A DNA stretch of 64,000 nucleotides, taken from positions 1 to 64,000 of the IMG/VR virus record IMGVR_UViG_3300005841_000037, one strand, 5' to 3'. Positions 1,403 to 57,906 of the stretch are shown here, one piece after another. The stretch's first letter is position 1. Each line of letters begins with the position of its first letter. Position numbers and translations under genes: made by a program. The notes under the pieces were generated by a model. It did no database searches, was not told where the DNA came from, and saw only the letters and a list, made by a program, of their open reading frames with translations. The DNA is from a virus.

Positions 1403-1617
1403 AACGTCTGTTCGACAAACCCGCTCGACCCTCACACCGTGCCGACCAGCCACCACCAACCCCATCCCCCCGCATCGACTACCCAGTCCATTTCGACCCC
1501 GACTTTGCAGCCCGTCCCACCGCTAGACGAACCGACTGCCCATATCACGCTCCCGCCGCCCAAGACCCCACCGACTTGCCTGCCTCCCACCACACCCATT
1601 CCGGAGGACGACTACCC
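1403..1617 (+). promoter_or_regulatory. 215-nt C-rich, G-poor untranslated leader
   Basis: No convincing gene is present. The sequence is dominated by C and A with almost no G runs, so little RNA structure is expected. It ends in GGAGGA at 1603-1608, spaced 9 nt from the GTG at 1618. Similar leaders stand before 4412 and 4964. I see no clear promoter hexamers. Confidence 0.4.
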
Positions 1618-3165
1618 GTGATCCGACGCATGATCTCCCGTGACCTCGGCGAATTCCGCGACTTCCAGACCCGCACCGTCGAGGTCGGCCGCATCCGCAC
1701 CGGTCAGTACGTCATTCCCGAGGGGAAGAGCGGCCGCCCGGTGAAGCTGGACAAGTTCCGGCTGACCTCCGAGAAGGAGGAGCACATCCGGGCCGCCGCC
1801 GAGCAGTACGGCGGCGAGGCCCGGCCGTATCAGCCGCAGGGTGGTGGCGCCCAGCAGTGGGAGGTCGTCACCGAGCTGGGCTCCCTGGAAGTGCTGCTGA
1901 TCAACGGCCAGCACATCGACCCCGTCTACGAGCAGTGGGGCAAGGGCCGCACGTGCATCCGCCGGTGCGACGGCGTGTGGAACGCGCAGACCCGCGAGGA
2001 CTGCCTGTGCAACGGCCCGAACCGGCCAAGCGATCCGCGGCAGCTGTGCAAGATTACGACCCGGGCCCAGGTGATGCTGCCCAGCGTGGCCGGACTGCAC
2101 GCGTGGCGGCTGGAGACCCACTCCGAGAACGCCGCCGTCGAGTGGTCGGCGCCGACCGTCGGCGGTCTCGTCCGGATCGCGCAGGTGCCGGTGCCCGCGA
2201 CGCTGTACCTGCGCAAGGAGCAGCGCCGGGAGCGCAACCATGCCAGGGGGGAGTTCGAGACCCGCGACTTCTTTGTGCCGACGTTTCACATCCGGCTGAG
2301 CGCGCTGGAGCTGGCGGCCGGGCCGGAGGCGATCACGGCTGCCCTCGTGGCCAACGGTGCGCCCGCGGCCCTGGCCCCGGCGGAGGTCCGCCGGGAGCTG
2401 GAGGCGGCCGCACCCGCACAGACGCCGCAGGCTGGGGCCCGAGACAAAACGAACCCCGAAGAAGTCCCGCCCCAGCCTGCGGACCCGCTCAACGAGGGCC
2501 GCCCACTGGAGGAAGGGGAGCTGCCACGCATCCTGACCGCCATCGAGAACGCTTCCACCCTGGCCGCGCTCGACGTGCTGAAGGACGCGTTCGCCAGCCA
2601 GAACGTGAGACATCGGCGGGTTTTTGACGCGTGGCTGTCGAAGCGTGCCGGGATCGAGGCCCGTGACGCCGACCAGCTGGCCCAGGAGGCGGCCGAGATC
2701 GCGGCGGAGGCCCTGCAGGACGAGTACGCCAACCGGGAGCCGTACGACGACACGGAGCCGTACATCGAGGGTCTCGACCGCGGTGAGCCGGACTACCCGG
2801 TCGGCACGGTGCTCACCGTCGGCGGCATCGAGTTCACCAAGATCTCCGACAACCCGTTCCCGCCTGGCTCGCCCGCCGCCCAGTTGTTCGACATGACCGA
2901 GGCGGCCGAGACGGAGGCAGCCCACTGGGATGCGAACCCGCCGGTCGAGGGCGCCGTCGAGGGCACCGGCCTGCCCATGGTGCCCGCGGGCAGCTACGAC
3001 CGGCTCACCGAATGGTCGAACCTCCTCATGGCCGCCGGGAAGCTCAGCCCGCCCATGACCACCGAACAGGTCAAGGCCTGGGCCAAAGCCACCTACGGCG
3101 TCACCAGCGTGGAGCAGGTCACCGGGGAGAAGTTCGCCCGGCTGCGCCTGTCCCTGGCGGGCTGA
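1618..3165 (+). CDS. phiC31 gp3-like (recombination directionality factor family) protein
   Basis: GTG start chosen because GGAGGA lies 9 nt upstream; a TTG at 1576 would have no ribosome site. Residues about 15-240 match the gp3-like family known from phiC31, where gp3 switches the serine integrase to excision. Seen here: the VGRIRTGQYVIPEGKSGRP segment, the LTSEKEEHI helix, the WEVVTE strand and a Cys cluster at about 113, 117, 129, 131 and 144, then LPSVAGLHAWRLETHS. About 270 residues of acidic, low-similarity sequence follow and have no recognised domain. No integrase is in the window, so a directionality role is inference; relatives in lytic phages may have another DNA-metabolic role. 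Confidence 0.75.
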   Translation: MIRRMISRDLGEFRDFQTRTVEVGRIRTGQYVIPEGKSGRPVKLDKFRLTSEKEEHIRAAAEQYGGEARPYQPQGGGAQQWEVVTELGSLEVLLINGQHIDPVYEQWGKGRTCIRRCDGVWNAQTREDCLCNGPNRPSDPRQLCKITTRAQVMLPSVAGLHAWRLETHSENAAVEWSAPTVGGLVRIAQVPVPATLYLRKEQRRERNHARGEFETRDFFVPTFHIRLSALELAAGPEAITAALVANGAPAALAPAEVRRELEAAAPAQTPQAGARDKTNPEEVPPQPADPLNEGRPLEEGELPRILTAIENASTLAALDVLKDAFASQNVRHRRVFDAWLSKRAGIEARDADQLAQEAAEIAAEALQDEYANREPYDDTEPYIEGLDRGEPDYPVGTVLTVGGIEFTKISDNPFPPGSPAAQLFDMTEAAETEAAHWDANPPVEGAVEGTGLPMVPAGSYDRLTEWSNLLMAAGKLSPPMTTEQVKAWAKATYGVTSVEQVTGEKFARLRLSLAG

Positions 3166-45263: not shown

Positions 45264-46043
45264 CTACCGTCCCCCTCGCGTCTGCGCGATCTGCGCACTG
45301 ACCTGCTGCATCCAGCTGTCGACCTGCGTTCCCCGCGGTGTCCGGCGCAGCTGCTGCCGGGCCGTTTCCTGCCGGGTCCGGGCATGCTCGCGCCGCATCC
45401 TGGCAACGAACACCTGCGCCCGCCCCTCATCGGAGGCCCGGGAGTCCGCGCGGGCGCCGTACCCGAAATCACCCTCGCGGGTACGTGCCGTCGCAGTATC
45501 CGGGTACCGCTGCGTTACATAACGCGCGTCGCTCAGCTCCGGCCGCCCCCGCATCTCACCCCGGCGCTTGGACACCACATCATCTTTGTGCTGCATCGAG
45601 GCGGCCCACTGGTGCGTGTATTTGCCGTTCATCCGCTCGCCGTAGCTGTTGAAGATCCGGCGGTCCTTGTCGACGAACGTGTACTGCGCCCCCATGTCAC
45701 CGGGGTTGCGGCGCAGGCCGATCGTCTCCCGGTACATCTCGAACGCCTGATCGAGACGCACGGCCTCGTCGTGTTCCTCGTCGGTCCGGTCCCGGCCCTG
45801 GCCGCCCTGCTCCGGGGGCAACGGGATGCGCCACAGCCGCCGATGCTCGGCGGCCGCCTCGGCGTGACCCTCGGGGTGAAAGCTGTTGCTGCGCTTGAGG
45901 CCCTGGACGCGATCGGAGTCGAGCGTGCCGGAACGTCCCGAACGCTCCGCGAACGCGTCCATGTGCTCGGCCCATCGGGCAATGGCCGTGTCAGTGAACC
46001 GGCCATGCGTGTCACGCCGGTGTTTGCCTTCGTCCCAGGTCAC
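45264..46043 (-). CDS. capsid-associated protein
   Basis: 259 residues from GTG overlapping the portal stop. KHRRDTHGRFTD at the N-terminus is the H-R-D-x-x-G-R-F signature seen in actinophage minor head proteins; the remainder is charged and helical. Tied to portal by translational coupling. Exact function unknown. Confidence 0.65.
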   Translation of the reverse strand: MTWDEGKHRRDTHGRFTDTAIARWAEHMDAFAERSGRSGTLDSDRVQGLKRSNSFHPEGHAEAAAEHRRLWRIPLPPEQGGQGRDRTDEEHDEAVRLDQAFEMYRETIGLRRNPGDMGAQYTFVDKDRRIFNSYGERMNGKYTHQWAASMQHKDDVVSKRRGEMRGRPELSDARYVTQRYPDTATARTREGDFGYGARADSRASDEGRAQVFVARMRREHARTRQETARQQLRRTPRGTQVDSWMQQVSAQIAQTRGGR

Positions 46044-48226
46044 GCCTTACCTCCCTGCGTGCTGGATCCGGCCGCCGACGGCTTCGCCGGTGGTGCCGCC
46101 TTCACGGCCTTCTTCGGCGCGGCCGCCGCCTTCTTCGGCTGCGCCTTCGCCGGTGCCGCCTTGCCCGCGGTCTTCGCCGGGCGGGACGTCACCTTCTTCG
46201 GTGCCGCGCCCGGCGCCCCCGGCCCGCCCATGCCGCCCGGGGGAAGCACCGGCGGCGGGTCCCGGAACGTCGGCGCGGGCAGCGGATCGGCGTCCGGCTC
46301 CGCCTCGGCGGTGCCGTCGGCGAGGTTGCCGATGATGCGGCTGATGAACGCCTGCATCTGGTTGTCGCTGACAATCCCGGCGGTAACGCCCGAGGCCAGG
46401 GCCTGCACGGCGGTGCCGACCTCGCTGAGCAGCGTGATCCGCTGCTCCAGGGTCAGGCCGTCGTGTTCTTTCAGCCACGCGTCGATCTGGTCGTCGGGGT
46501 ATCCGGCCTCGTTGAGCAGCACCTCACTGGGCACGCCCAGTTCGGCTTTCGCCTTGAGGACCTGGAGGCCGTTGAGGTCGTTGATCGGCGCCGCGGGCTT
46601 CCACCGGACGTCGACGGCCACACCGTCGATGCCGAGCATGCGCAACGCCAGCTCGTAGGCGTCCTGCCACTCCGGGTCGTAGCGGCTCTGCCGGTCCTCG
46701 ATGATCGAGTTCCGCCCGGCGTTCATCTCCCGGGCCGCCTCACCCGACGGCATGTCCGTGGTGTTCTTCGTGAACGCGTACAGCGGCTGCCCGGTCAGCT
46801 CGGCCATCGACTTGATGAACCGGTCGAGGGGCTTCATGAACGTGTCCGGGTCGGCCGCGGAGTACTGGCCGGTGGACTTGCCGAACATGCGCCACACGCT
46901 GCCCGGGTCGGACTTCAGCCCGGACGTGCCACCTTCGCCTTCCGGGTCGTCGTCCTCGTCCTCCGGGTGGTCGGGGTCGAGGTCGTTGTACAACGGATCG
47001 TCGATCTTCGGATCGACCATGACGTACCGCTGCGGGAAGCCCTGGTACTCGATGACCCCGGCGTACGACCAGATCAGCTTGTTGATCAGCGTCTGCGGGC
47101 CGTAGGCACCGACGTGTTCGGGCTGGCCGCACGGCACGTCGTTGCGGAAGTGGAACCAGGTCAAGCCCCACTTCGCGACGATCGTGTCGTCGCCGACGAT
47201 CTTGTCGACGGCCGCCTGGTCGTAGGCGCCAGACCGGGGCGGGAATGCCTCTTCGGCCTCGTCGTCGAGGCCTTCCTCCAGCTCGTCGGGGTCGGAGAAT
47301 TCGTCGGCGGCCACCTCGGCCATGTCGGCGATGTCCCGGGCCTCGGTGAGCCGGTGCCACGAGCCGGGCAGGGTCGGCGGGTCGCCGGGCTCCGTCACCC
47401 AGCGTTCGACGCGGCCCTCACCTTGGGTGATCTGGCCTTTCGGGTCGATCTGCAGCGGCCCCGGGTAGTAGAGGTTCGCCCGGTAGACGAGCTTCCGGCC
47501 CTGCGCGGTCAGGCCGTCTTCGCCGAAGTCGCTCGGGGTCTCCCACGACTTGATCACGTAGGCCACGCGCAGCGGGTCTTCGGGGTCGTACATGAAGGCG
47601 ACGTTGTGGGCGGTGTTGACCCGGAAGTCGACGCTGACGACCTTGCCCGCGTCGTCTTCGACGGGCCACAGGAGCAGGAACGCCTCACCGTGCTTCGAGA
47701 CGGTCTTGTGCAGGGCCTTCTCGTACACGTCCAGGCGGTTGTTGTGCCGGATGAGCTTGACGGCCGCCTCAGCGCGCTGCAGGGCCTCTTCGTCGGCGGA
47801 GGCCTCGTCGTCGTCCTCGTCGTCGGTCGGCTCGTCCTCGTCGGTGACGGGGGCGACCTTGACCGCGGCGATCTGCAGCCGGTTGGCGATCTCGTCGACG
47901 GGGATCCGGGCGTAGTTGAAGTCCTGGACGTCGTCTTCGGCGACGCCCTGCTTCAGCAGCAGCTTCCGCACCTGCTGGGAGGCGTAGACCATGCCGACTT
48001 CGCCGTCGTAGTACTCGTCGGCGATGTCGGCCCGGGTCCGCTGCTCCTGCAGCACGGCGAGGCCTTCGATGATGTCGCGGCGGGCAAGCCGGTCACGTTC
48101 GGCGCTGGCCGGGCTGGCAAGGCGGCGGATGAACGGGTCGTTGGCGAAGTCCGACCCACGCCCGGCGCCCGCGGTCGGAAAGGTGTGCGCCGGGGTGTTC
48201 GTCCGGGGCCTGGCCGGTGCCGCCAT
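46040..48226 (-). CDS. portal protein
   Basis: 728 residues: N-terminal arm, RADIADEYYDGEVGMVYAS, a beta-rich wing, FHFRNDVPCGQPEHVGAYGP, then SMAELTGQPLYAFTKNTTDM and REMNAGRNSIIEDRQSRYD near the stem and crown. A 100-residue Lys/Ala/Pro-rich tail. Forms the DNA-entry dodecamer. A hairpin in its leader may control translation. Confidence 0.88.
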   Translation of the reverse strand: MAAPARPRTNTPAHTFPTAGAGRGSDFANDPFIRRLASPASAERDRLARRDIIEGLAVLQEQRTRADIADEYYDGEVGMVYASQQVRKLLLKQGVAEDDVQDFNYARIPVDEIANRLQIAAVKVAPVTDEDEPTDDEDDDEASADEEALQRAEAAVKLIRHNNRLDVYEKALHKTVSKHGEAFLLLWPVEDDAGKVVSVDFRVNTAHNVAFMYDPEDPLRVAYVIKSWETPSDFGEDGLTAQGRKLVYRANLYYPGPLQIDPKGQITQGEGRVERWVTEPGDPPTLPGSWHRLTEARDIADMAEVAADEFSDPDELEEGLDDEAEEAFPPRSGAYDQAAVDKIVGDDTIVAKWGLTWFHFRNDVPCGQPEHVGAYGPQTLINKLIWSYAGVIEYQGFPQRYVMVDPKIDDPLYNDLDPDHPEDEDDDPEGEGGTSGLKSDPGSVWRMFGKSTGQYSAADPDTFMKPLDRFIKSMAELTGQPLYAFTKNTTDMPSGEAAREMNAGRNSIIEDRQSRYDPEWQDAYELALRMLGIDGVAVDVRWKPAAPINDLNGLQVLKAKAELGVPSEVLLNEAGYPDDQIDAWLKEHDGLTLEQRITLLSEVGTAVQALASGVTAGIVSDNQMQAFISRIIGNLADGTAEAEPDADPLPAPTFRDPPPVLPPGGMGGPGAPGAAPKKVTSRPAKTAGKAAPAKAQPKKAAAAPKKAVKAAPPAKPSAAGSSTQGGKA

Positions 48227-48232
48227 GAAAAA

Positions 48233-48279
48233 CTCCCGCCGGGCTGGACGTTATGGACGCCCATATGCTACGGCGGGAG
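48233..48279 (-). promoter_or_regulatory. leader hairpin masking the portal ribosome site
   Basis: On the - strand CTCCCGCCG (48279-48271) pairs with CGGCGGGAG (48241-48233); the second arm contains the ribosome site and is followed by TTTTTC and the ATG at 48226. Could act as attenuator or translation switch. Confidence 0.5.
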
Positions 48280-48284
48280 ATCAC

Positions 48285-48303
48285 TTAGTACAACCGTACG
48301 AAC
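48285..48303 (-). promoter_or_regulatory. GTTCGTAC-type site S1
   Basis: - strand GTTCGTACGGTTGTACTAA, about 60 nt before portal. TACTAA could be a -10 box. Same family as S2-S4. Confidence 0.45.
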
Positions 48304-48325
48304 TGGGGAAACGTACCGCCCCAGG

Positions 48326-48670
48326 TCAGCCGACGAGCGGCCAGGCGGCCCAGTAGCCGAATTCGGATGCCACCCCGGCCTCCTCGGTGTCACAGAACCG
48401 CACGTATTCGTGCCGGGTGGTGATGTCCTCGGCGACGTCACGGTCGACGGTGAGGAACGCGTCATCGTCGACGCTGACGACGGTACCGGTGGCCCGGTAC
48501 GGGCTGTCCATCGGCGGGCGCATGGTGACCTTGTCACCGGGCTGCGGTTCCACCGTTGCAGTGTAGGTGCCGCATCCGGCGTTGAGGTCGTCGGCGTGGG
48601 CGGGGACGGTGGGGGCGAGCAACGCGGCGGCGACCGCGAGGGGCGCGAACACCCGGTACAGCTTGATCAT
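48326..48670 (-). CDS. secreted protein
   Basis: 114 residues, ATG 48670 behind AAGGAG. Signal peptide (YRVFAPLAVAAALLAPTVPAHA), then a beta-rich domain with two Cys (GCGTY, RFCDTEE). Likely exported from the infected host; function unknown. Transcribed from site H. Confidence 0.75.
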   Translation of the reverse strand: MIKLYRVFAPLAVAAALLAPTVPAHADDLNAGCGTYTATVEPQPGDKVTMRPPMDSPYRATGTVVSVDDDAFLTVDRDVAEDITTRHEYVRFCDTEEAGVASEFGYWAAWPLVG

Positions 48671-48699
48671 TGAGGCTCCTTGGTGGTTGGTTACCTCAT

Positions 48700-48729
48700 A
48701 GTAACCCCGTTTGTCACGCCGTGTGTCGA
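48700..48729 (-). promoter_or_regulatory. operator-promoter site H
   Basis: TCGACA (48729-48724), 18-nt spacer, GTTACT (48705-48700), or TACTAT slightly downstream; palindrome CGACACACGGCGTGACA (48712-48728). Confidence 0.65.
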
Positions 48730-48770
48730 TCCTTGCCGGGTGTCAACGTTCGCCATGGGTGCAAACAGAC

Positions 48771-48797
48771 GGAACCCCGGCCGGTGGCCGGGGTTCC
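48771..48797 (-). terminator. hairpin after lipoprotein gene
   Basis: 12-bp stem GGAACCCCGGCC / GGCCGGGGTTCC with a 3-nt loop. Confidence 0.75.
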
Positions 48798-48809
48798 TGG
48801 GGTGGTGCG

Positions 48810-49325
48810 TTACTGCGCGGTGGTCGTCTGGCAGGCCGCGATGTACGGCGGGCCACCGCCGGGACTGGACGAGTGCACGTGGTCGATGACCGGCGGGTTG
48901 TTGCCGTCGGTGATCGAGCAGTACCCGTCTTTGCTGCCCGCCTTTTCCAGCTCGAAGTGCAGGCTGATGGTCAGTTTGTTCTTGGCCGGGTAGGAGACGC
49001 TGTGCTTCCAGCCGCCCGCGGCGACCGGGATGTGCGGCGGATAGACCCCGCCGTCGTATTTGCCGCCGGTGATGCTGAGGTACACGTCGTAAGGACCAAA
49101 CCGAGACTCAACGAACGTCTGCAGGATGAAACAGCGCTGGTTCGGGTCCGTGAACTCAATGTCGGGGCACGTTGGCGCCTTATTCGGGTTCTGCGGGCCG
49201 GGCTGGCCGCCGTCGACCGGCGGCGGGAAGTCCCGGGGCCCTTCGGCTACGGGCGGCTCGGCGGGGCAGGCCAGCAGGAACGGAACCAGGACCGCGGCCA
49301 GCCCGATCGGCCACGCGCGCCGCAC
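48810..49325 (-). CDS. lipoprotein, possible superinfection-exclusion factor
   Basis: 171 residues from GTG 49325. Hydrophobic signal VLVPFLLAC gives a lipobox (LLAC), then a Pro/Gly-rich linker and a beta-rich domain with four further Cys. A phage-made surface lipoprotein suggests blocking of receptors or DNA entry against other phages; that role is inference. Coupled to the upstream membrane protein. Confidence 0.75.
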   Translation of the reverse strand: MRRAWPIGLAAVLVPFLLACPAEPPVAEGPRDFPPPVDGGQPGPQNPNKAPTCPDIEFTDPNQRCFILQTFVESRFGPYDVYLSITGGKYDGGVYPPHIPVAAGGWKHSVSYPAKNKLTISLHFELEKAGSKDGYCSITDGNNPPVIDHVHSSSPGGGPPYIAACQTTTAQ

Positions 49326-49513
49326 TACAGGACCGCCCGGACAGCCTCGATCGCCCCGTATCCGGCGGCGAGGAGGGTGCCGAGGGCACCGAACACGATG
49401 AGGCCACAGATGCCGCCGCCGCTGCTCCCGCTCCTCTTGTGCGCCGGGCGGCTGCCCCGGCCGTATCCGTCGCGGTTGCCGCCGCCCCGGCGGTGATCGC
49501 CCTTGTTGCCCAT
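49325..49513 (-). CDS. small Gly/Arg-rich membrane protein
   Basis: 62 residues, ATG 49513 behind AAGGAGG. Gly/Arg/Ser-rich cytoplasmic part and one membrane helix (ICGLIVFGALGTLLAAGYGA). Stop shares one base with the lipoprotein GTG. Could assist the lipoprotein. Confidence 0.7.
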   Translation of the reverse strand: MGNKGDHRRGGGNRDGYGRGSRPAHKRSGSSGGGICGLIVFGALGTLLAAGYGAIEAVRAVL

Positions 49514-49543
49514 GTGGGCCTCCTTCGTGGTGGGTGAGGCTTC

Positions 49544-49573
49544 ACCCTATCACACTGTCACATGGTGTGACAA
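49544..49573 (-). promoter_or_regulatory. operator-promoter site I
   Basis: TTGTCA (49573-49568), 18-nt spacer, TAGGGT (49549-49544); perfect palindrome TGTCACATGGTGTGACA (49556-49572). Confidence 0.75.
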
Positions 49574-49582
49574 CTCAATGTC

Positions 49583-49699
49583 GCTGGCCGGGGCAGATGT
49601 CTGATGGGTTTCGCTTCTGGCTCGGCCCCGGCCAGCAGTTTTGGGGCCCGCCGCCGCGGCTCACCCTGGGGTTTCACGGAAACTCCGGCGACGGCGGGC
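49583..49699 (-). ncRNA. bridge-RNA-like unit G (two hairpins) downstream of Tnp_20 gene
   Basis: G1: 8-bp stem GCCCGCCG (49646-49653) / CGGCGGGC (49692-49699), 38-nt loop. G2: 12-bp perfect stem GCTGGCCGGGGC (49583-49594) / GCCCCGGCCAGC (49625-49636), 30-nt loop. On the - strand both loops carry GAAACCC near their centre. Same architecture as the units upstream of the gene. Confidence 0.7.
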
Positions 49700-49707
49700 A
49701 GTTCAGG

Positions 49708-49761
49708 ACCGGCCGGGGCGGTCGGTCATGGGATCTCGTTCGCTCGATGGCCCCGGCCGGT
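49708..49761 (-). ncRNA. bridge-RNA-like hairpin F2
   Basis: 12-bp perfect stem ACCGGCCGGGGC (49708-49719) / GCCCCGGCCGGT (49750-49761) with a 30-nt loop holding GAGATCCCA. Begins 3 nt after the Tnp_20 stop codon. No long-stem partner hairpin of the first type is seen for it. Confidence 0.68.
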
Positions 49762-49764
49762 GGT

Positions 49765-50607
49765 CTACGGGAGGAGCGGCGGGTTTTCCAGCAGGTCCGG
49801 GTCGGCAAGCACGTGCAGGCGCCGGGCCTCGATCCAGAATGCCTTCAAAATCTCTTTCGACGCATAGCGCATGGCGTCGGTGTGCCGGTGGCCGAGGGTC
49901 CACGCCTCCAGCCCGGCCGCGTCGCGCAGCTCCGGCGCGGTGGCCGCGCGGCGGCGGTCATAGGCAACCCGGAACGGCGAGCACCGGCAGTCGTCGGTAT
50001 GCTGAGGCGGGGCGGCGGCCGAAGTGCTCGCTTCATCCGCTTGAGTTTCGCCGCCGCCCTTGCACGCCCTGTCCAACTGCTTCAGGCAGGACTCGGCGCA
50101 GAGGTACGCCCTTGTCTTGGCATTGGTCGACCAGTTGGACTTCACGCCCTTCTGCCGCTTCACGGCCTTGCCATCGGCGACGTGCAGCCCCGAGTAGGCC
50201 CAGAGCGCGCTCACCGTGCGCGGCGCGTCGGTGTCGAATCTCCAGTACGGGTCACCGATCGCGGCCAGCAGCCTGCCAGCCTGTTTCATGCCGAGTCCGC
50301 GCTGCGCCTTCACCCACGCCCCCATCGGGTGCGCAGCCATGGCCTTCTCCAAGCCTTTCACCGCATCGGCCTCGATGGTCTTGAGGGCGTCGAAGATCGA
50401 CAGGAAGCGGACGGCGGCCGGGTGGTCGGGGGCCATGCCCGCCGACCGCACCACCTCGTCCTTATCCGGCTTCCACGGCTTGCCGTCGGGGGTGAAGCCG
50501 GTCAGGGCGCCGTAGCGGGCGGCGTTGGCCATGCGGACGCGTTCGAGGTCGTCGAGCACGTCGGCGGCCAGTTGGACGGCGGTCGGGTCGAGCAGATCGC
50601 GGTGCAT
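49765..50607 (-). CDS. IS110-family transposase C-terminal (Tnp_20) domain protein
   Basis: 280 residues, ATG 50607 behind GGAGA. Residues about 65-100 are a helical linker. Residues about 101-262 match the IS116/IS110/IS902 C-terminal domain: RGLGMKQAGRLLAAIGDP (helix-hairpin-helix), VSALWAYSGLHV, KRQKGVKSNWSTNAKTRAYL, SPFRVAYDRRR and DAMRYASKEILKAFWIEARR. The N-terminal DEDD RuvC-like domain of IS110 transposases is absent; residues 1-60 do not resemble it. An insertion at about 180-208 carries CRC. The gene lies within the hairpin array, five units before and three hairpins after it. No terminal repeats of an insertion sequence seen. Confidence 0.78.
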   Translation of the reverse strand: MHRDLLDPTAVQLAADVLDDLERVRMANAARYGALTGFTPDGKPWKPDKDEVVRSAGMAPDHPAAVRFLSIFDALKTIEADAVKGLEKAMAAHPMGAWVKAQRGLGMKQAGRLLAAIGDPYWRFDTDAPRTVSALWAYSGLHVADGKAVKRQKGVKSNWSTNAKTRAYLCAESCLKQLDRACKGGGETQADEASTSAAAPPQHTDDCRCSPFRVAYDRRRAATAPELRDAAGLEAWTLGHRHTDAMRYASKEILKAFWIEARRLHVLADPDLLENPPLLP

Positions 50608-50628
50608 TGGGTCTCCTGTGGTGGTGGG

Positions 50629-50739
50629 CCCCGCCCGGGGCGCCGCAATTTTGGGTGACGGTGGTCCATCGGCCCCGGGCGGGGAGCTGGTCAGCAGGGC
50701 GCGGGCATTTCGGGTAACGGTCGACTGTCGGCCCCGCTG
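50629..50739 (-). ncRNA. bridge-RNA-like unit A
   Basis: A2: perfect 13-bp stem CCCCGCCCGGGGC (50629-50641) / GCCCCGGGCGGGG (50672-50684), 30-nt loop. A1: weaker stem CAGC..GGGC / GCCC..GCTG (50692-50739). The loops share ACCGTTACCCGAAA versus ACCGTCACCCAAAA on the - strand. Lies just before the Tnp_20 ribosome site. Confidence 0.7.
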
Positions 50740-50753
50740 GGTCTGGAGTTGAG

Positions 50754-50867
50754 CCCCGCCCGGGGCGCATCGGACTCGGTCACCGACAGTCACTCGGCCC
50801 CGGGCAGGGAGCTGAACCGGCAGGGCGTTGAGGGCACGGGCATCGAAAACCCCGAGGCTCTGCCGGT
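50754..50867 (-). ncRNA. bridge-RNA-like unit B
   Basis: B2: 13-bp stem 50754-50766 / 50797-50809; the one plus-strand C:A mismatch is G.U in - strand RNA. B1: perfect 8-bp stem ACCGGCAG (50816-50823) / CTGCCGGT (50860-50867), 36-nt loop. Loop cores CGATGCCCG and GGTGACCGA. Confidence 0.7.
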
Positions 50868-50883
50868 CGTCTGTAGATTTGTG

Positions 50884-50986
50884 GCCCGCCCAGGGCGCTC
50901 GCATGACGGCATCGATACGGTAGCGGCCCTGAGCAGGCGGTCCTGCACGGACGTTCAACGGGCTTCGTTGCGGCGAAGGTGCAGGA
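50884..50986 (-). ncRNA. bridge-RNA-like unit C
   Basis: C2: 13-bp stem 50884-50896 / 50926-50938 with two plus-strand C:A pairs that are both G.U in - strand RNA. C1: perfect 8-bp stem TCCTGCAC (50941-50948) / GTGCAGGA (50979-50986) with an inner CTTCG/CGAAG stem. Loop cores CGATGCCGT and CGAAGCCCG. Confidence 0.7.
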
Positions 50987-50993
50987 GTTGCGC

Positions 50994-51105
50994 CCCCACC
51001 GGGGCGGCACCACTACGGGCATCACGCCACTATCGGCTCCGGCGGGGAGTTCGCGCCGCCCGGCGGCAGCATCACGGGTACGGTCGGCATCAGCGGCCGG
51101 GCGGC
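50994..51105 (-). ncRNA. bridge-RNA-like unit D
   Basis: D2: 12 of 13 positions pair or wobble, 50994-51006 / 51035-51047. D1: perfect 10-bp stem GCCGCCCGGC (51055-51064) / GCCGGGCGGC (51096-51105), 31-nt loop. Loop cores GTGATGCCCG and CCGTACCCG. Confidence 0.7.
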
Positions 51106-51115
51106 AAATCTGGGA

Positions 51116-51240
51116 GCGCAGCCCCGGGCGGATCTTCCCCGGGTATCGCGGACAGAACGGCCCGGGGCTGCGCAGTGCGGGGGGTGGCGGCGCGGCGGTT
51201 GCCGATCGGGTCTCGCAATCTCTTTGGCCACGCCGCCACC
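51116..51240 (-). ncRNA. bridge-RNA-like unit E
   Basis: E2: perfect 13-bp stem GCGCAGCCCCGGG (51116-51128) / CCCGGGGCTGCGC (51161-51173), 32-nt loop. E1: perfect 10-bp stem GGTGGCGGCG (51183-51192) / CGCCGCCACC (51231-51240), 38-nt loop. Loop cores GCGATACCCG and GCGAGACCCG differ at one base. First unit of the upstream array, ending 5 nt from the preceding gene. Confidence 0.72.
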
Positions 51241-51244
51241 TGGT

Positions 51245-51781
51245 CTAGGCCCGATCCATCAGCTGCTTGAGCACAGCCTCCGGCAGATGTTCTACCGTGT
51301 CCGCGCCGTGCTGGCGCAGCACCTCGGCGATCTCGTCATACCGGGCGGCGACAGCCATGTTCCGGGCGGCCTGGCCGCGGGCGAACGCCGCCGCCGCGAT
51401 CAGGTCGGCGGCGGTGGCGTCGCCGAGGCGCAGCCGGTGCTCACCGGTCCAGATCGTGTCCCGCAGGAACCGCTCACGCTCGGCGGCGAACATGTCGCGC
51501 ATCCTGGCCCGTTTCGCGCTCACCGGCGCAGCCACCGCACGGCGCGTTCCCTGCGCGGCGAGCTTCGCCTGCGCGCTCCGGCCGTGGATGTACGGATTCA
51601 CGGTGCGGTTTTTGCTGAAGTAGGTACGGACTGCGGCGCGCAGGAACGACAGCATATGCGCCTCCAGCACCTCGGCCGGGGCGGACTGGCGGACCTTGAC
51701 GGCGATGTCGGCGACGTCGGTGAGACCGGCGCTCACGGCCTGGTCGATGTAGGTGCGCAGGTCGGGCATGTCGTCGGACAC
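51245..51781 (-). CDS. hypothetical protein upstream of hairpin array
   Basis: 178 residues from GTG 51781 behind AAAGGAG. Helical: DLRTYIDQAVSAGLTDVADI, an Arg-rich linker, then WTGEHRLRLGDATAADLIAA and RYDEIAEVLRQHGADTVEHL. Resembles a family of unknown function in Streptomyces phages. Shares a transcript with the array and Tnp_20 gene. Confidence 0.75.
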   Translation of the reverse strand: MSDDMPDLRTYIDQAVSAGLTDVADIAVKVRQSAPAEVLEAHMLSFLRAAVRTYFSKNRTVNPYIHGRSAQAKLAAQGTRRAVAAPVSAKRARMRDMFAAERERFLRDTIWTGEHRLRLGDATAADLIAAAAFARGQAARNMAVAARYDEIAEVLRQHGADTVEHLPEAVLKQLMDRA

Positions 51782-51920
51782 GGGCACTCCTTTCGATGGT
51801 GGGACGCCGGGGCGGAAGGCTTCAGGGCTTCCCTGGCTTTTGGGCCCCGGCGGGCTTTGGGGTCGGCCGGGCGCCATTGCGCTGGTTACTCGGCTCTTCA
51901 ACGGCCCGGCCGACTTCACA

Positions 51921-51950
51921 ACCCTGCACTATCGTCACACCCCGTGTCAA
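51921..51950 (-). promoter_or_regulatory. operator-promoter site J
   Basis: TTGACA (51950-51945), 18-nt spacer, CAGGGT (51926-51921); palindrome TGACACGGGGTGTGACG (51933-51949). Begins at the terminase stop codon (51952-51954). Drives the gene at 51781, the array and the Tnp_20 gene. Confidence 0.7.
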
Positions 51951-51951
51951 G

Positions 51952-53745
51952 TTACCGGGGCTGCAGCGTGCCGTCCTTGCGCGCGATCTTCGGCGTGAGC
52001 AGCCGGACCACCGGCGACATGGCGGCGTCCACGATGTCGTCATGGGGAACGAGCGGCCACGCCAGCATTTGATCTTCAAGTGCCGGAATGACCCTGGAGA
52101 ACGTCACCCGGTTGCGTTGTTGCAGGTCGAGGGCGCGGGCGAACTTGACCTCCTTGCCCTCCGAGGTGCCATAGGTGATCACCCGGATGGGGAAGTTGTC
52201 GAACACCTCGGTCCACAGGTCACCGCCCTGGTTGTTCTCGATCACCAGGGCCTTGACCTGCGGATAGTCCTGTAGCACCGTCAGCACGTGATCGCGCAGC
52301 CGCTTGCCGGTCAGTTTCACGCCCTGCGCCATCTCAATGTGCACCCGGGACAGCCTGGTCGCCGTGCCCTTGTCGAGGGCCTCCCGGGCCTCACGCCTGG
52401 TCAGGCGGCCGAACCGGATCCGGCCCTTGCCGTCGACGCCATCGGTCAGTTCCTCGCGCTTCCAGAGCGCCAGTTCCGCCGCGGTAACCTTCGATGCGTT
52501 CGCGACCGCCGGGGCATATCCGACCACGGCGATACCGCAGTCATCCGATCGGGTTTTCATGGTTACCGGCGGGTCGAGGAAAATGAACCATTTGGTAATG
52601 TTCGCCGGAGTGCCGTACATGAAGTCATCGGCACCCCAGTATTTGCCTTCACGACCCTTCGGGTCATTGTCGTAGTTCAATTTGTACGAGCGGGTGTGCT
52701 CGATCGATTCGAGGTATTCCAGGGACCATTTCGCGGGCCACACACTGCGCCGGGTGCCGTCGCGCCGGGTCACGATCGCCCTCGTGTGATACGTCTTGAT
52801 CTTCTGCTCGTCGACCCACGGTTCGACGTCCTCACCCTTGGAGTGCCGGACCAGCTCATGCACGATGCTGCCCGGCATTGTAACCGTGCCGACGAGAACG
52901 ACGCGCGCCAATTCGTTGAGTGGCAGAATGGCGTTTTCGATGGTGCTGAGCCGCTTCTCCCGCTGGAACGGCGAATACGTCGCCTCCGGCGGCTCGCAGT
53001 CGTCGAAGATCAGCAGGTCGGGCCGCTCGGCACCCATCTTCATGCCCAGCGACGTCGAGTCGATACCTTTCGCCACGAACGTGAAGCCGCTGCGCGAGTG
53101 CAGCATATTTTGATTGTCGGCGACGGTCCGGCCGGTGTGCCGCCGGGCCGGGTTGCACAGGCCCGGGTAGTCGTTGCGGAGCAGCACATTGTCGGCGTGC
53201 TCGGCCTTGAACGTCGACAGGTGCAGCTCCGCCATCGAGCCCGAGTCGGCGAACGCCGCCGCGAACTTCGCATGGCCGTGCGCCCCCGCCCACATCGGCA
53301 AAATCAAAAACCACCAGGTGGACTTCCCGCACGACCGGGGCGCGACGAATGCTTTCCGGTCTTCACGCTGGCCGCGGGACGGGCCGATCCACCGCCGGGC
53401 GGCCCGGACCCACAGGAAGTGGGCGTCGGCGAAGGAGATGTCACCTTCGTTGTTTTTGAGGTGTTTGCGCATGTAGGTGAGCGCGAACAGCATCGGGTCG
53501 TACTTCGTCAGCACCCGGCGGCCCTCGGCGGAGCCGAGCAGCCGCGGATCGAACTGCGACAGGTACAAGTCGAGGTCGAACGTTTCCGGGTTGGCGTCGG
53601 GGCTGTACGGGTCGATGGTGACGCCCGCCAGGGCGGCCATCGCCAGGGCCCGCTGGCGGCGCCGCTCGGGTGTGACGGCCTCGTCCGGCGGGATGGCGGT
53701 CGTGGGGCCGTCGGCGACGGTGGCGCCACCGGCGAGGGTGGTCAC
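51952..53745 (-). CDS. terL: terminase large subunit
   Basis: 597 residues. ATPase domain with Walker A APRSCGKST (135-143) and Walker B LLIFDDCE (244-251); nuclease domain with FIFLDPPV, ALVIENNQGG and a terminal HDDIVDAAM acidic motif. Cuts and pumps phage DNA through the portal. Start ATG lies 3 nt after the small subunit stop. Confidence 0.95.
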   Translation of the reverse strand: MTTLAGGATVADGPTTAIPPDEAVTPERRRQRALAMAALAGVTIDPYSPDANPETFDLDLYLSQFDPRLLGSAEGRRVLTKYDPMLFALTYMRKHLKNNEGDISFADAHFLWVRAARRWIGPSRGQREDRKAFVAPRSCGKSTWWFLILPMWAGAHGHAKFAAAFADSGSMAELHLSTFKAEHADNVLLRNDYPGLCNPARRHTGRTVADNQNMLHSRSGFTFVAKGIDSTSLGMKMGAERPDLLIFDDCEPPEATYSPFQREKRLSTIENAILPLNELARVVLVGTVTMPGSIVHELVRHSKGEDVEPWVDEQKIKTYHTRAIVTRRDGTRRSVWPAKWSLEYLESIEHTRSYKLNYDNDPKGREGKYWGADDFMYGTPANITKWFIFLDPPVTMKTRSDDCGIAVVGYAPAVANASKVTAAELALWKREELTDGVDGKGRIRFGRLTRREAREALDKGTATRLSRVHIEMAQGVKLTGKRLRDHVLTVLQDYPQVKALVIENNQGGDLWTEVFDNFPIRVITYGTSEGKEVKFARALDLQQRNRVTFSRVIPALEDQMLAWPLVPHDDIVDAAMSPVVRLLTPKIARKDGTLQPR

Positions 53746-53748
53746 GGC

Positions 53749-54399
53749 CTACAGCTCCGGGTCGTCGCTGGCGGTGGCGATGATGTCGGCCTCGGAGGCG
53801 GCAGCGCGGGCGGCGGCCTCGTTGACCATCTCCTGTAGCTCCATCTCCTCCTGGGTGAGCTGCGTCAGCTGCACGTCGACCTTGACGGGCATGTTGAGGC
53901 CCATCAGTTTCGAGCGGGCGCCGACGAGCGACTCGACGGTGCGCAGCGCCTCCAGGGCGGTCCGGGTCGCCCGGAAACTGGCCTTCACCTTGTCGTACTG
54001 CTTCCACGCCTCGGCGGCGGCCGCTTCCAGCTCGATCGCGGCCTCGGCGCGCAGTACGGGGGTGTTGACGACGCCGGAGCGCTTGTCGACGTCTTCGCGA
54101 GTCCACCGGCGGACGGTCTCGATGGACAGGCCGAAGCGTTCGCCGATTTCGCGCAGCGGCGCGTGCGGGTGGCTGACGGTGTAGGCGATGACCTCTTTGA
54201 CCAGGGATTCGTCGTAGGACCGGGGGCCGAATCGCTTATGGCCGCGGGTCCGGCCGCGGCCGTCCTCGTGGTCGTCGTCCTGAATGCGGGGGCCGGTCCA
54301 GCCGTCGCTGTGCGAGTATCCGGCGCCCGGGTAGTGCCGCCGGACGACGATCTCGCCTTCGAGGGCCTGGCCGTCGTCGTAGTCTGGTGCGTCGCCCAT
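53749..54399 (-). CDS. terminase small subunit
   Basis: 216 residues. Helix-turn-helix APLREIGERFGLSIETVRRW (residues about 78-98), then long helices for oligomerisation (LRAEAAIELEAAAAEAWKQY). Recognises the packaging site; directly upstream of terL. Confidence 0.85.
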   Translation of the reverse strand: MGDAPDYDDGQALEGEIVVRRHYPGAGYSHSDGWTGPRIQDDDHEDGRGRTRGHKRFGPRSYDESLVKEVIAYTVSHPHAPLREIGERFGLSIETVRRWTREDVDKRSGVVNTPVLRAEAAIELEAAAAEAWKQYDKVKASFRATRTALEALRTVESLVGARSKLMGLNMPVKVDVQLTQLTQEEMELQEMVNEAAARAAASEADIIATASDDPEL

Positions 54400-54448
54400 C
54401 TCGGACCCTTCCGTGCTGCCGTCGCGGCTGGTGGGCCCGCATCACGCA

Positions 54449-56361: not shown

Positions 56362-56433
56362 CAGGAGGACGGGGATTCGAACCCCGGCTACCCGCTTTGG
56401 AGACGGGTGCTCTGGCCGCTGAGCTATCCTCCT
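56362..56433 (-). tRNA. tRNA-Trp (CCA)
   Basis: Acceptor AGGAGGA / TCCTCCT, D-arm AGCTCAGCGGCCAGAGC, anticodon loop CTCCAAA, T-arm CGGGG TTCGAAT CCCCG; discriminator G. Confidence 0.92.
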
Positions 56434-56746
56434 AGGCGCCGCCCGGTCCGGACCGGGCGGCTTGTGCGGGGCCGAACTGCCGAGGCGTACCCGGCCAGCA
56501 GATCCTGCACCGCAAGCGGGTGAGGTGTGATCCCCTGCGCCCATCCGGTCGTACGCCCGGATCACGTCCCGCTCCCCCGGCGTAACCCGCCGGATGGTCA
56601 CCCAGCCGCCCCTGTCGGCAGGCTGGGCAATGTCTCGCAGTGTCCGGGTCCGATCAGGGCAGGTCCCGCCGGTCGTACACTGCGCATTTGGGCAGCCGAC
56701 TACGTGCGGCTCCGCAACGGACCGCGGCCGGTAACGCCGCGGATCG
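56434..56746 (-). other. spacer in tRNA island
   Basis: Holds a perfect 24-nt palindrome GCCGCCCGGTCC / GGACCGGGCGGC at 56438-56461 (terminator-like). An open - strand frame covers the spacer but starts in one tRNA and ends past another and has no ribosome site, so I do not call it a gene. Confidence 0.4.
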
Positions 56747-56818
56747 AGGATCACCAGGGACTCGAACCCTGAACTGACCGGTTAAGAGCCGGTTCCTCTG
56801 CCATTGAGGTAGTGATCC
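56747..56818 (-). tRNA. tRNA-Lys (CTT)
   Basis: Acceptor GGATCAC / GTGATCC, anticodon arm ACCGG CTCTTAA CCGGT, T-arm CAGGG TTCGAGT CCCTG. Complete cloverleaf of 71 nt. Confidence 0.93.
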
Positions 56819-56864
56819 AATGTCCCGTGTGCGCGCCCGGACGGGACCAGCCGGGAGATGCCCC

Positions 56865-56883
56865 ACCCTCCTGTCCGGAGGGT
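56865..56883 (-). terminator. hairpin after small membrane gene
   Basis: 7-bp stem ACCCTCC / GGAGGGT, 5-nt loop; no clear T-run. Confidence 0.45.
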
Positions 56884-56902
56884 CAGTCGCGCGGTTGAAC
56901 GT

Positions 56903-57070
56903 CTACTTCCCGGCCACCCACGGCACGCCGTCGCCGGTCATACCCTTGGCCGCGGGAACGACCCGGCTGCGCAGGGCGTTCGCGTCGGGCAGGCCGTGGC
57001 CGAGGGCGTCGGCCAGGATCATCATCGGGTAGGCCAGCAGCGCCAGCGCACCGAGCAGTGTCAGCAGCAT
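56903..57070 (-). CDS. small membrane protein inside tRNA island
   Basis: 55 residues starting ATG 57070 with AAGGAGG 5 nt upstream. One membrane helix (LLTLLGALALLAYPMMILAD), then GHGLPDANALRSRVVPAAKG. Clear ribosome site and composition support a real gene despite small size. No family recognised. Confidence 0.75.
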   Translation of the reverse strand: MLLTLLGALALLAYPMMILADALGHGLPDANALRSRVVPAAKGMTGDGVPWVAGK

Positions 57071-57085
57071 GCTGACCTCCTTTCG

Positions 57086-57160
57086 CGTCCGTCAGGGGAA
57101 TTGAACCCCTGTCACGCCCGCCAAAAGGGGCCGGGCGGCTCGCCGTGGCTCTACCGGACG
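57086..57160 (-). tRNA. tRNA-like gene with irregular anticodon arm
   Basis: Acceptor CGTCCGG / ACGGACG (one mismatch) and T-arm AGGGG TTCAATT CCCCT are good. The anticodon region forms a 6-bp stem CGCCCG / CGGGCG round 11 nt (GCCCCTTTTGG); reading TTT (Lys) or TTG (Gln) each leaves mismatches. D-arm weak. Confidence 0.5.
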
Positions 57161-57247
57161 TCATCTTCGTTTCCCGCCTTGCAGGGCGCCGTTGACGCGG
57201 CACAACCCCACTCCGTCGACGGGTGGATCGTCAAATCCTGAAGCGTG

Positions 57248-57395
57248 GATGACATGGGATTCGAACCCACCATCGGCTACTTTGCGTTTCGGCTCGGCCC
57301 ACCACGCGGGCCGTGCGAGCTTGACGCGTTTCACCCTTCCCCTTTCGGGGCGCCAGGGCCAAGATGCCCCGCTCTCTCCATTGAGCTATCTCACC
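57248..57395 (-). tRNA. tRNA-like gene with ~75-nt insertion
   Basis: 5' half GGTGAGA with D-arm GCTCAATGGAGAGAGC and arm GGGGC ATCTTG GCCCT; 3' half T-arm GTGGG TTCGAAT CCCAT and acceptor TGTCATC, pairing six of seven positions with the 5' end. Between them lie hairpins CCCC GAAA GGGG and GGCCC GCGTGGT GGGCC nested in a GCTCG/CGAGC stem. Intron, giant variable arm or fused halves are all possible. Confidence 0.4.
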
Positions 57396-57397
57396 CG

Positions 57398-57470
57398 TAC
57401 CCCGCCCGGGACTTGAACCCGGAACTTCCCGATTAAAAGTCGGGCACGCTGCCAGTTGCGTCAGCGGGGC
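57398..57470 (-). tRNA. tRNA-Lys (TTT)
   Basis: Acceptor GCCCCGC / GCGGGGT, anticodon arm CCCGA CTTTTAA TCGGG, T-arm CCGGG TTCAAGT CCCGG. Complete cloverleaf. Confidence 0.92.
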
Positions 57471-57474
57471 ACAA

Positions 57475-57504
57475 CCGGGGTGACATCGTTTTCAGCCACC
57501 CCGG
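57475..57504 (-). terminator. hairpin between small gene and tRNA-Lys
   Basis: 8-bp stem CCGGGGTG / CACCCCGG with a 14-nt loop. May be a terminator or processing site; it lies inside the tRNA transcript. Confidence 0.45.
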
Positions 57505-57604
57505 CCTCTAAACGGTGCACATCAGCGCGGGACCGTAGGGGTACGTGCCTCTGTCGGCCTCTGTGCGGTGGTGCATCGTCCCCGGTTACGACGGGGGCGA
57601 GGTG

Positions 57605-57799
57605 TTACCGGTTCTTGCCGGGCGGCGGGTTGGTGGTGGCGCCACGACTTCCGGCGCCGAAGGAGTCGCGGGCGATACGGTCCGCCCTGGCCCCCTCGGC
57701 CTTGTTGTCGACGCCGCGGTCAGCGCGGATGCGGCCCCCGCTGGAACCGCCCTCGGCCTTGCCGGAACTGTGGCCGGTCTCGCCGCGGTTCTTCGCCAT
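57605..57799 (-). CDS. small hydrophilic protein inside tRNA island
   Basis: 64 residues, ATG 57799 behind GGGAG. Gly/Arg/Ala/Ser-rich and probably disordered (GETGHSSGKAEGGSSGGRIR). No family recognised. Confidence 0.65.
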   Translation of the reverse strand: MAKNRGETGHSSGKAEGGSSGGRIRADRGVDNKAEGARADRIARDSFGAGSRGATTNPPPGKNR

Positions 57800-57831
57800 A
57801 AGGTGCTCCCGTCTCGTGGTGGATGTTGCCG

Positions 57832-57906
57832 TAGCGGAGGCTGGATTCGAACCAGCGCATGCCGGGCTTATGAGGCCCGCGAGGATGACCGCTCCTCTAC
57901 TCCGCT
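57832..57906 (-). tRNA. tRNA-Met (CAT)
   Basis: Acceptor AGCGGAG / CTCCGCT, anticodon arm CGGGC CTCATAA GCCCG, T-arm CTGG TTCGAAT CCAG. Elongator, initiator or Ile2 identity cannot be told with certainty. Confidence 0.9.

Follow-up and report, generated by a model that had tools for sequence, protein, structure and literature searches.

The tasA gene and its hairpin array

The locus described here lies in the virus record IMGVR_UViG_3300005841_000037 of IMG/VR (64.6 kb), of which positions 1 to 64,000 were analysed as one stretch, called the window below. It consists of the gene tasA (49765-50607, minus strand, ATG at 50607), encoding a 280-residue solo Nop-domain Tas protein, and of fifteen hairpins around it, and it is situated between the large terminase gene (terL, 51952-53745) and the portal gene (46040-48226). 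Very probably, this locus of an uncultivated actinophage-like virus is a stem-loop TIGR-TasA system. TIGR-Tas is the RNA-guided DNA-targeting family described by Faure et al. (Science 2025, PMC12045711).

The array comprises 13 hairpins in 49583-51240, outside the gene, and two more, one of them degenerate, at 51805-51914. An earlier sequence-only reading had reported about 13 hairpins in 49583-51240; these are all present, and the two at 51805-51914 lie outside the range that it gave. Ten hairpins lie upstream of tasA (50629-51240) and three downstream (49583-49761); of the latter, the one nearest the gene (49708-49761) is separated from the stop codon by 3 nt, as that reading had noticed. 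The upstream part had been described as five two-hairpin units of 110-130 nt with loops of 29-40 nt. It is instead a series of ten single hairpins: each hairpin of the array is one unit, with a period of about 61 nt and a GC-rich stem of 8-14 bp whose sequence varies between units, and the loop measures 30 nt in 12 of the fifteen, 31 nt in two and 29 nt in one. Read on the minus strand, the unit runs stem, CCR, spacer A (9 nt), CG, a 4-nt linker, CCR, spacer B (9 nt), CG, stem, so that box C (CCR) and box D (CG) are present at the edge and loop positions alike. The columns of the 30-nt loop are C-R-(9 variable)-C-G-(4)-C-C-R-(9 variable)-C, and the first stem base past the loop is G in every unit. 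The earlier description of the loops as variable holds for the two 9-mers, but not for C1, C12, G13, C18-C19 and C30, which bracket them and are invariant or nearly so.

All fifteen hairpins are on the minus strand. Downstream of tasA, each with a 12-bp stem and a 30-nt loop, are those at 49583-49636 (A AGCCAGAAG, B TCAGACATC), 49646-49699 (one G.U in the stem) and 49708-49761, next to the tas stop codon. The upstream series starts with 50629-50684 (13-bp stem, A ATGGACCAC, B AAATTGCGG), 50692-50739 (9 bp including one G.U, A ACAGTCGAC, B AAATGCCCG), 50754-50809 (13 bp, A AGTGACTGT, B AGTCCGATG) and 50816-50867 (11 bp with one mismatch, A CGGGGTTTT, B TGCCCTCAA). It continues with 50884-50938 (13 bp with two G.U, 29-nt loop, A CTACCGTAT, B TCATGCGAG), 50941-50986 (8 bp, A TCGCCGCAA, B TTGAACGTC), 50994-51047 (12 bp with two non-Watson-Crick pairs, A ATAGTGGCG, B TAGTGGTGC) and 51055-51105 (10 bp, 31-nt loop, limits of A uncertain, B TGATGCTGC), and ends with 51116-51173 (14-bp perfect stem, A TTCTGTCCG, B GGGAAGATC) and 51183-51240 (14 bp with one G.U, A AAGAGATTG, B ATCGGCAAC). 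Of the two outlying hairpins, the degenerate tigRNA-like one at 51805-51852 has a 9-bp perfect stem and a 30-nt loop with partly lost boxes, and the one at 51862-51914 has an 11-bp stem and a 31-nt loop with a 5-nt linker (A TTGAAGAGC, B GCGCAATGG).

The hairpins are beyond chance. A detector built on the box motifs and the stem found, at its cut-off, 10 units in the window and none in five shuffled versions, and the folding of single hairpins gave z-scores of -4.0 to -5.5 against shuffles. The tally of loop lengths also peaked at 32 and 34, but these are the same hairpins recounted with inner pairs removed or slid, and we did not rely on them. In IMG/VR, the exact 38-base consensus pattern matched 58 stretches, and about 35 contigs besides the window's own copies bear such hairpins, most of them several and up to 13; the loops in many of these viral contigs follow the same CCR-9-CG-4-CCR-9-CG plan. 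A CRISPR array, which would have identical direct repeats and unique single spacers, was ruled out, as the stems differ from unit to unit.

The 280-residue protein matched the NCBIfam model NF052498 (TIGR_Tas_endo) with E=3.3e-44 and 151.4 bits, the curated cut-off being 100, and the solved TasR chain PDB 9mty_A with E=1.4e-16. In the Pfam search no match was obtained, Tnp_20 included, and neither the Pfam nor the NCBIfam search indicated an HNH or RuvC nuclease domain. An AlphaFold2 model built from 45 homologues reached a pLDDT (predicted local distance difference test) of 90.2, with residues 188-194 as the sole stretch below 50; a single-sequence attempt (pLDDT 39) was discarded. The confident part starts at a long N-terminal helix, and no additional domain is seen. 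In Foldseek searches with this model, TasR (9mty) was the top match at E=2.4e-8, followed by TasH (TasR/TasH range 2e-8 to 3e-4), while the IS621/IS110 recombinase (E 0.37, probability 0.96) and Nop56/58 (3nvi, E 0.6) matched weakly. Because a nuclease domain is absent, the protein is, judged by its sequence and predicted structure, a TasA, the name given to nuclease-less Tas proteins in PMC12045711, and the word endonuclease in the name of NF052498 does not apply to it.

The sequence-only reading had proposed an IS110/Tnp_20 protein with bridge RNAs. An insertion sequence or recombinase of the IS110 family that uses several bridge RNAs would agree with the distant shared ancestry seen in the IS621 match, as well as with the label 'transposase' of PHROG 4285. 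The locus shares with IS110/IS621 (PDB 8wt6, 8wt9) a related Nop-like RNA-binding domain and a dual-guide RNA logic. However, sequence searches and the model revealed neither the N-terminal DEDD/RuvC-like catalytic domain nor, in Pfam, a Tnp_20 match; the score lies far over the TIGR-Tas cut-off, whereas IS110-looking Mycobacterium proteins reach at most about 56 bits; and the guides are some 15 separate one-loop hairpins in tandem arrays, each a complete dual-spacer guide and not half of a single bridge RNA with a target and a donor loop. We therefore regard an IS110 element as very improbable. The bridge-RNA proposal named the wrong family but was right in spirit: sequence and model support its idea that one stand-alone protein is programmed by many guide RNAs to target DNA, in the form of a predicted TIGR-TasA system.

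Hairpin units and spacer change in relatives

In a megablast search of 46000-54400 against phages no match was found; at the protein level, 84 phage records contain a homologue (28-42% identity), and 76 of these records are from Mycobacterium phages. Most of the relatives, more than 80 sequenced phages in all, infect Mycobacterium smegmatis, and their gene is annotated as 'transposase' or 'hypothetical'. All inspected carriers had adjoining hairpins (HarryOW, Euphoria, Chanagan, Rich, Morrissey, BENtherdunthat, Spooky, Peregrin and the prophage prophiFSAT01-1), and the hosts of the inspected array-bearing isolated phages belong to Mycobacterium, Gordonia and Rhodococcus. Among 249 Mycobacterium genomes, 4 had a match above the TIGR-Tas family cut-off; many had weaker matches, which resemble IS110-type proteins.

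Alignment-based searches yielded 65 tas loci, 58 viral and 7 actinobacterial. The earlier suggestion to look for homologues that lack an array was followed, and the homologues do carry it: 61 of the 65 loci had at least one unit beside the gene. Within 1.8 kb of tas (275 kb) we counted 352 units, nearly all on the tas strand, compared to 7 in the remaining 479 kb. The pairing of the stems was examined with box patterns taken without selection for stems. At least 7 of 8 flanking pairs were Watson-Crick in 292 of 742 patterns beside tas on the tas strand, in 1 of 400 on the opposite strand and in 4 of 1153 far away. Such an asymmetry would be expected if the RNA is transcribed in the same direction as tas. 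Non-Watson-Crick pairs on the tas strand included 86 G.U and 36 A.C (p=7e-6), which favours pairing in RNA.

In 14 near-identical mycobacteriophages, nucleotide diversity rose from 0.024 in the upstream gene and 0.035 in tas to 0.082 in the stems and 0.586 in the spacers. As the stems are kept and the spacers vary, the frame is under selection. From these sequences, units look to have been exchanged independently between the 14 phages. The frame is retained and new guide content takes the place of the old, which is what changing targets would lead one to expect. The sister phages, which differ at the tas locus mainly in their spacers, provide a natural series of guide variants in a tractable host.

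These results also bear on the proposal that the hairpins are terminators, attenuators or packaging (pac) sites unrelated to the protein. Such a role would be in line with the location of the window array between terL and portal and with hairpins that adjoin stop codons. It is nevertheless hardly credible, as the units accompany tas into other neighbourhoods (in mycobacteriophages, tas and its units also occur near Cas4-type exonuclease and repressor genes) and into the tas reading frame itself, and they have constant 30-nt loops with box C/D motifs and spacers that are hypervariable among sister phages.

Two further arrays were noticed during the searches. In Microcystis phage Mvi-JY20 (L068, 4579-4781), a distant homologue is followed by an array resembling dual-repeat TIGR, with ACGAAACCC and ATGCGAGCC alternating. 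A compact array in a 117-kb IMG/VR contig (L033, 243-578) has a 37-nt period, alternating 7-nt GCCGGGC/GCCCGGC edges and 30-nt loops, and is apparently intermediate between the stem-loop and dual-repeat types.

Relation to known systems, mechanism and targets

According to PMC12045711, stem-loop TIGR arrays accompany Tas proteins outside the dual-repeat clade; these arrays have two spacers of 8-12 nt, each flanked by a box C and a box D, their palindromic stems are variable, and the intervening sequence is variable or constant. The published example (Peromyscus gut contig, section 9) has TasA with 13 stem-loops, and pull-down RNA sequencing yielded RNAs of one hairpin each. The locus in the window belongs to this known family and agrees with the stem-loop type at every anatomical point that was tested computationally, and the earlier statement that no array of such sort had been described was incorrect: stem-loop arrays beside solo-Nop TasA had been published. 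With the Peromyscus system it shares a solo Nop-domain Tas, tandem stem-loops adjoining the gene, two short box-framed spacers per hairpin and variable palindromic stems; it differs in its actinophage-type relatives, its GC-rich sequence, CG as box D, the 30-nt loop with a 4-nt linker in most units, and the extra units upstream of the neighbouring gene and possibly within other open reading frames (ORFs). The dual-repeat TasR/TasH systems (PDB 9mty, 9vzx and others) have in common with it the Nop fold and two spacers between box motifs; unlike them, the window protein is without RuvC or HNH, and self-complementary stems replace the edge repeats. The box C/D small nucleolar ribonucleoproteins (Nop5, Nop56/58) also combine a Nop domain with C/D-framed guides, but no fibrillarin or L7Ae partner was noticed among the neighbours in the window, and the structure match is weak (3nvi). 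Our literature search found no other work linking these arrays to mycobacteriophages, which PMC12045711 cites in general.

We infer the following course for the expression, processing, DNA binding and biological role of the window system. The array would probably be transcribed jointly with tasA on the minus strand, and a host RNase would cut between the hairpins, as was shown for another stem-loop array (PMC12045711). A TasA dimer would bind each hairpin at both box C/D pairs. By analogy to TasR, spacer A would pair with one DNA strand and spacer B with the other (9 nt each), at adjacent 9-bp half sites that together form a target of about 18 bp, and the exchangeable guides would steer TasA to many sites. 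TasA would bind and bend or block DNA; no cutting is expected, because the nuclease is absent. Since the spacers change far faster than their surroundings, the system most likely serves to interfere with or regulate host DNA or that of competing mobile elements. PMC12045711 leaves open what nuclease-less TasA does and what it targets in nature, partly because the known systems are metagenomic; the relatives in cultured mycobacterial phages make the question of TIGR-TasA targets testable.

From the TasR cut positions and 8-nt 3ʹ overhangs that have been reported, one strand of the target would read 5ʹ-A.rc(B)-3ʹ, where rc is the reverse complement, and this order was used in searching for targets. 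The results of these searches, together with two other observations, weigh against the TIGR-TasA assignment. Searching 1.45 Mb with 474 guides at up to 2 mismatches, we obtained 198 matches in the expected order and 214 in the control order, with 179-226 and 174-199 matches for re-paired spacers, i.e. no enrichment over controls. No target was found in 50 kb of Euphoria, and one conserved guide had 0 matches in the 249 Mycobacterium genomes. Target patterns in IMG/VR gave 10, 12, 0, 2 and 0 scattered matches with no pattern; those of two window guides were treated as chance, because the GC content of the contigs (0.35-0.66) differs from that of the window (0.695). As little relevant sequence was covered, the negative outcome carries little weight in either direction. 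The box D motif reads CG here and UG in TasR arrays (PMC12045711), although the same work allows the box motifs to diverge provided that edge and loop covary, which they do in this array. Finally, the detector found no unit near tas in 4 of the 65 loci.

The absence of targets from the sequence searched, as well as the two degenerate units (51805-51852 and the one at 50010-50059 described below), could also be explained by a genuine TIGR array that no longer works as a guide system, being a relic or a domesticated regulatory RNA. We consider this improbable, though somewhat less so than the IS110 and terminator proposals: most units keep their boxes and stems, tas is intact, and the conservation of stems beside varying spacers in the relatives speaks for selection on the frame.

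Guide units inside reading frames and other features

In 21 of 47 homologues, the tas ORF itself contained sense units, 35 in total and one to three each (in-ORF loci: L065, 3646-4520; L066, 3589-4514; and 21 of the tas loci L074-L130). In the protein alignment they fall at a single site where insertions recur, and 34 of the 35 share one codon phase. Their 608 codons include 0 stops; judged by array units read in that phase, 8.3 would be expected (P=2e-4). As far as we found, the main text of PMC12045711 mentions neither these in-frame units nor fixed stems with hypervariable spacers such as those of the 14 mycobacteriophages. Excision of a guide would destroy the tas message; therefore, guide processing may limit Tas synthesis. 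That guides are built into coding sequence for such a self-limiting feedback is a tentative reading, to which we give somewhat less than even chances, and the in-frame guides within tas suggest a coupling of guide processing with Tas expression. In the Gordonia phages BENtherdunthat and Spooky, the annotated N-terminus of tas is also a translated array.

The tasA gene of the window is without the recurrent insertion of the homologues. A candidate degenerate unit (50010-50059, plus strand, opposite tasA; 10-bp perfect stem, 30-nt loop, loop D box CT in place of CG) occupies another linker, which is disordered in the model, holds residues 188-194 (pLDDT <50) and is an insertion relative to homologues. 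A solitary tigRNA-like hairpin (2425-2482, plus strand; 14-bp perfect stem, 30-nt loop, C/D boxes mostly kept) was found about 47 kb from tasA, within the Gp3-like ORF 1576-3165 (PF18897, recombination-directionality-factor-like). With these two hairpins, the window phage would retain a trace of in-gene guides.

Between the array and terL, at 51245-51784, there is a small gene that is conserved in phages (PHROG 4604, function unknown), and the two outlying units are located just upstream of its likely start. The Rfam search of the window and the array returned only tRNAs at the gathering threshold; sub-threshold microRNA matches in the array were dismissed as chance. The phage encodes four tRNA genes (56362-57906, minus strand).
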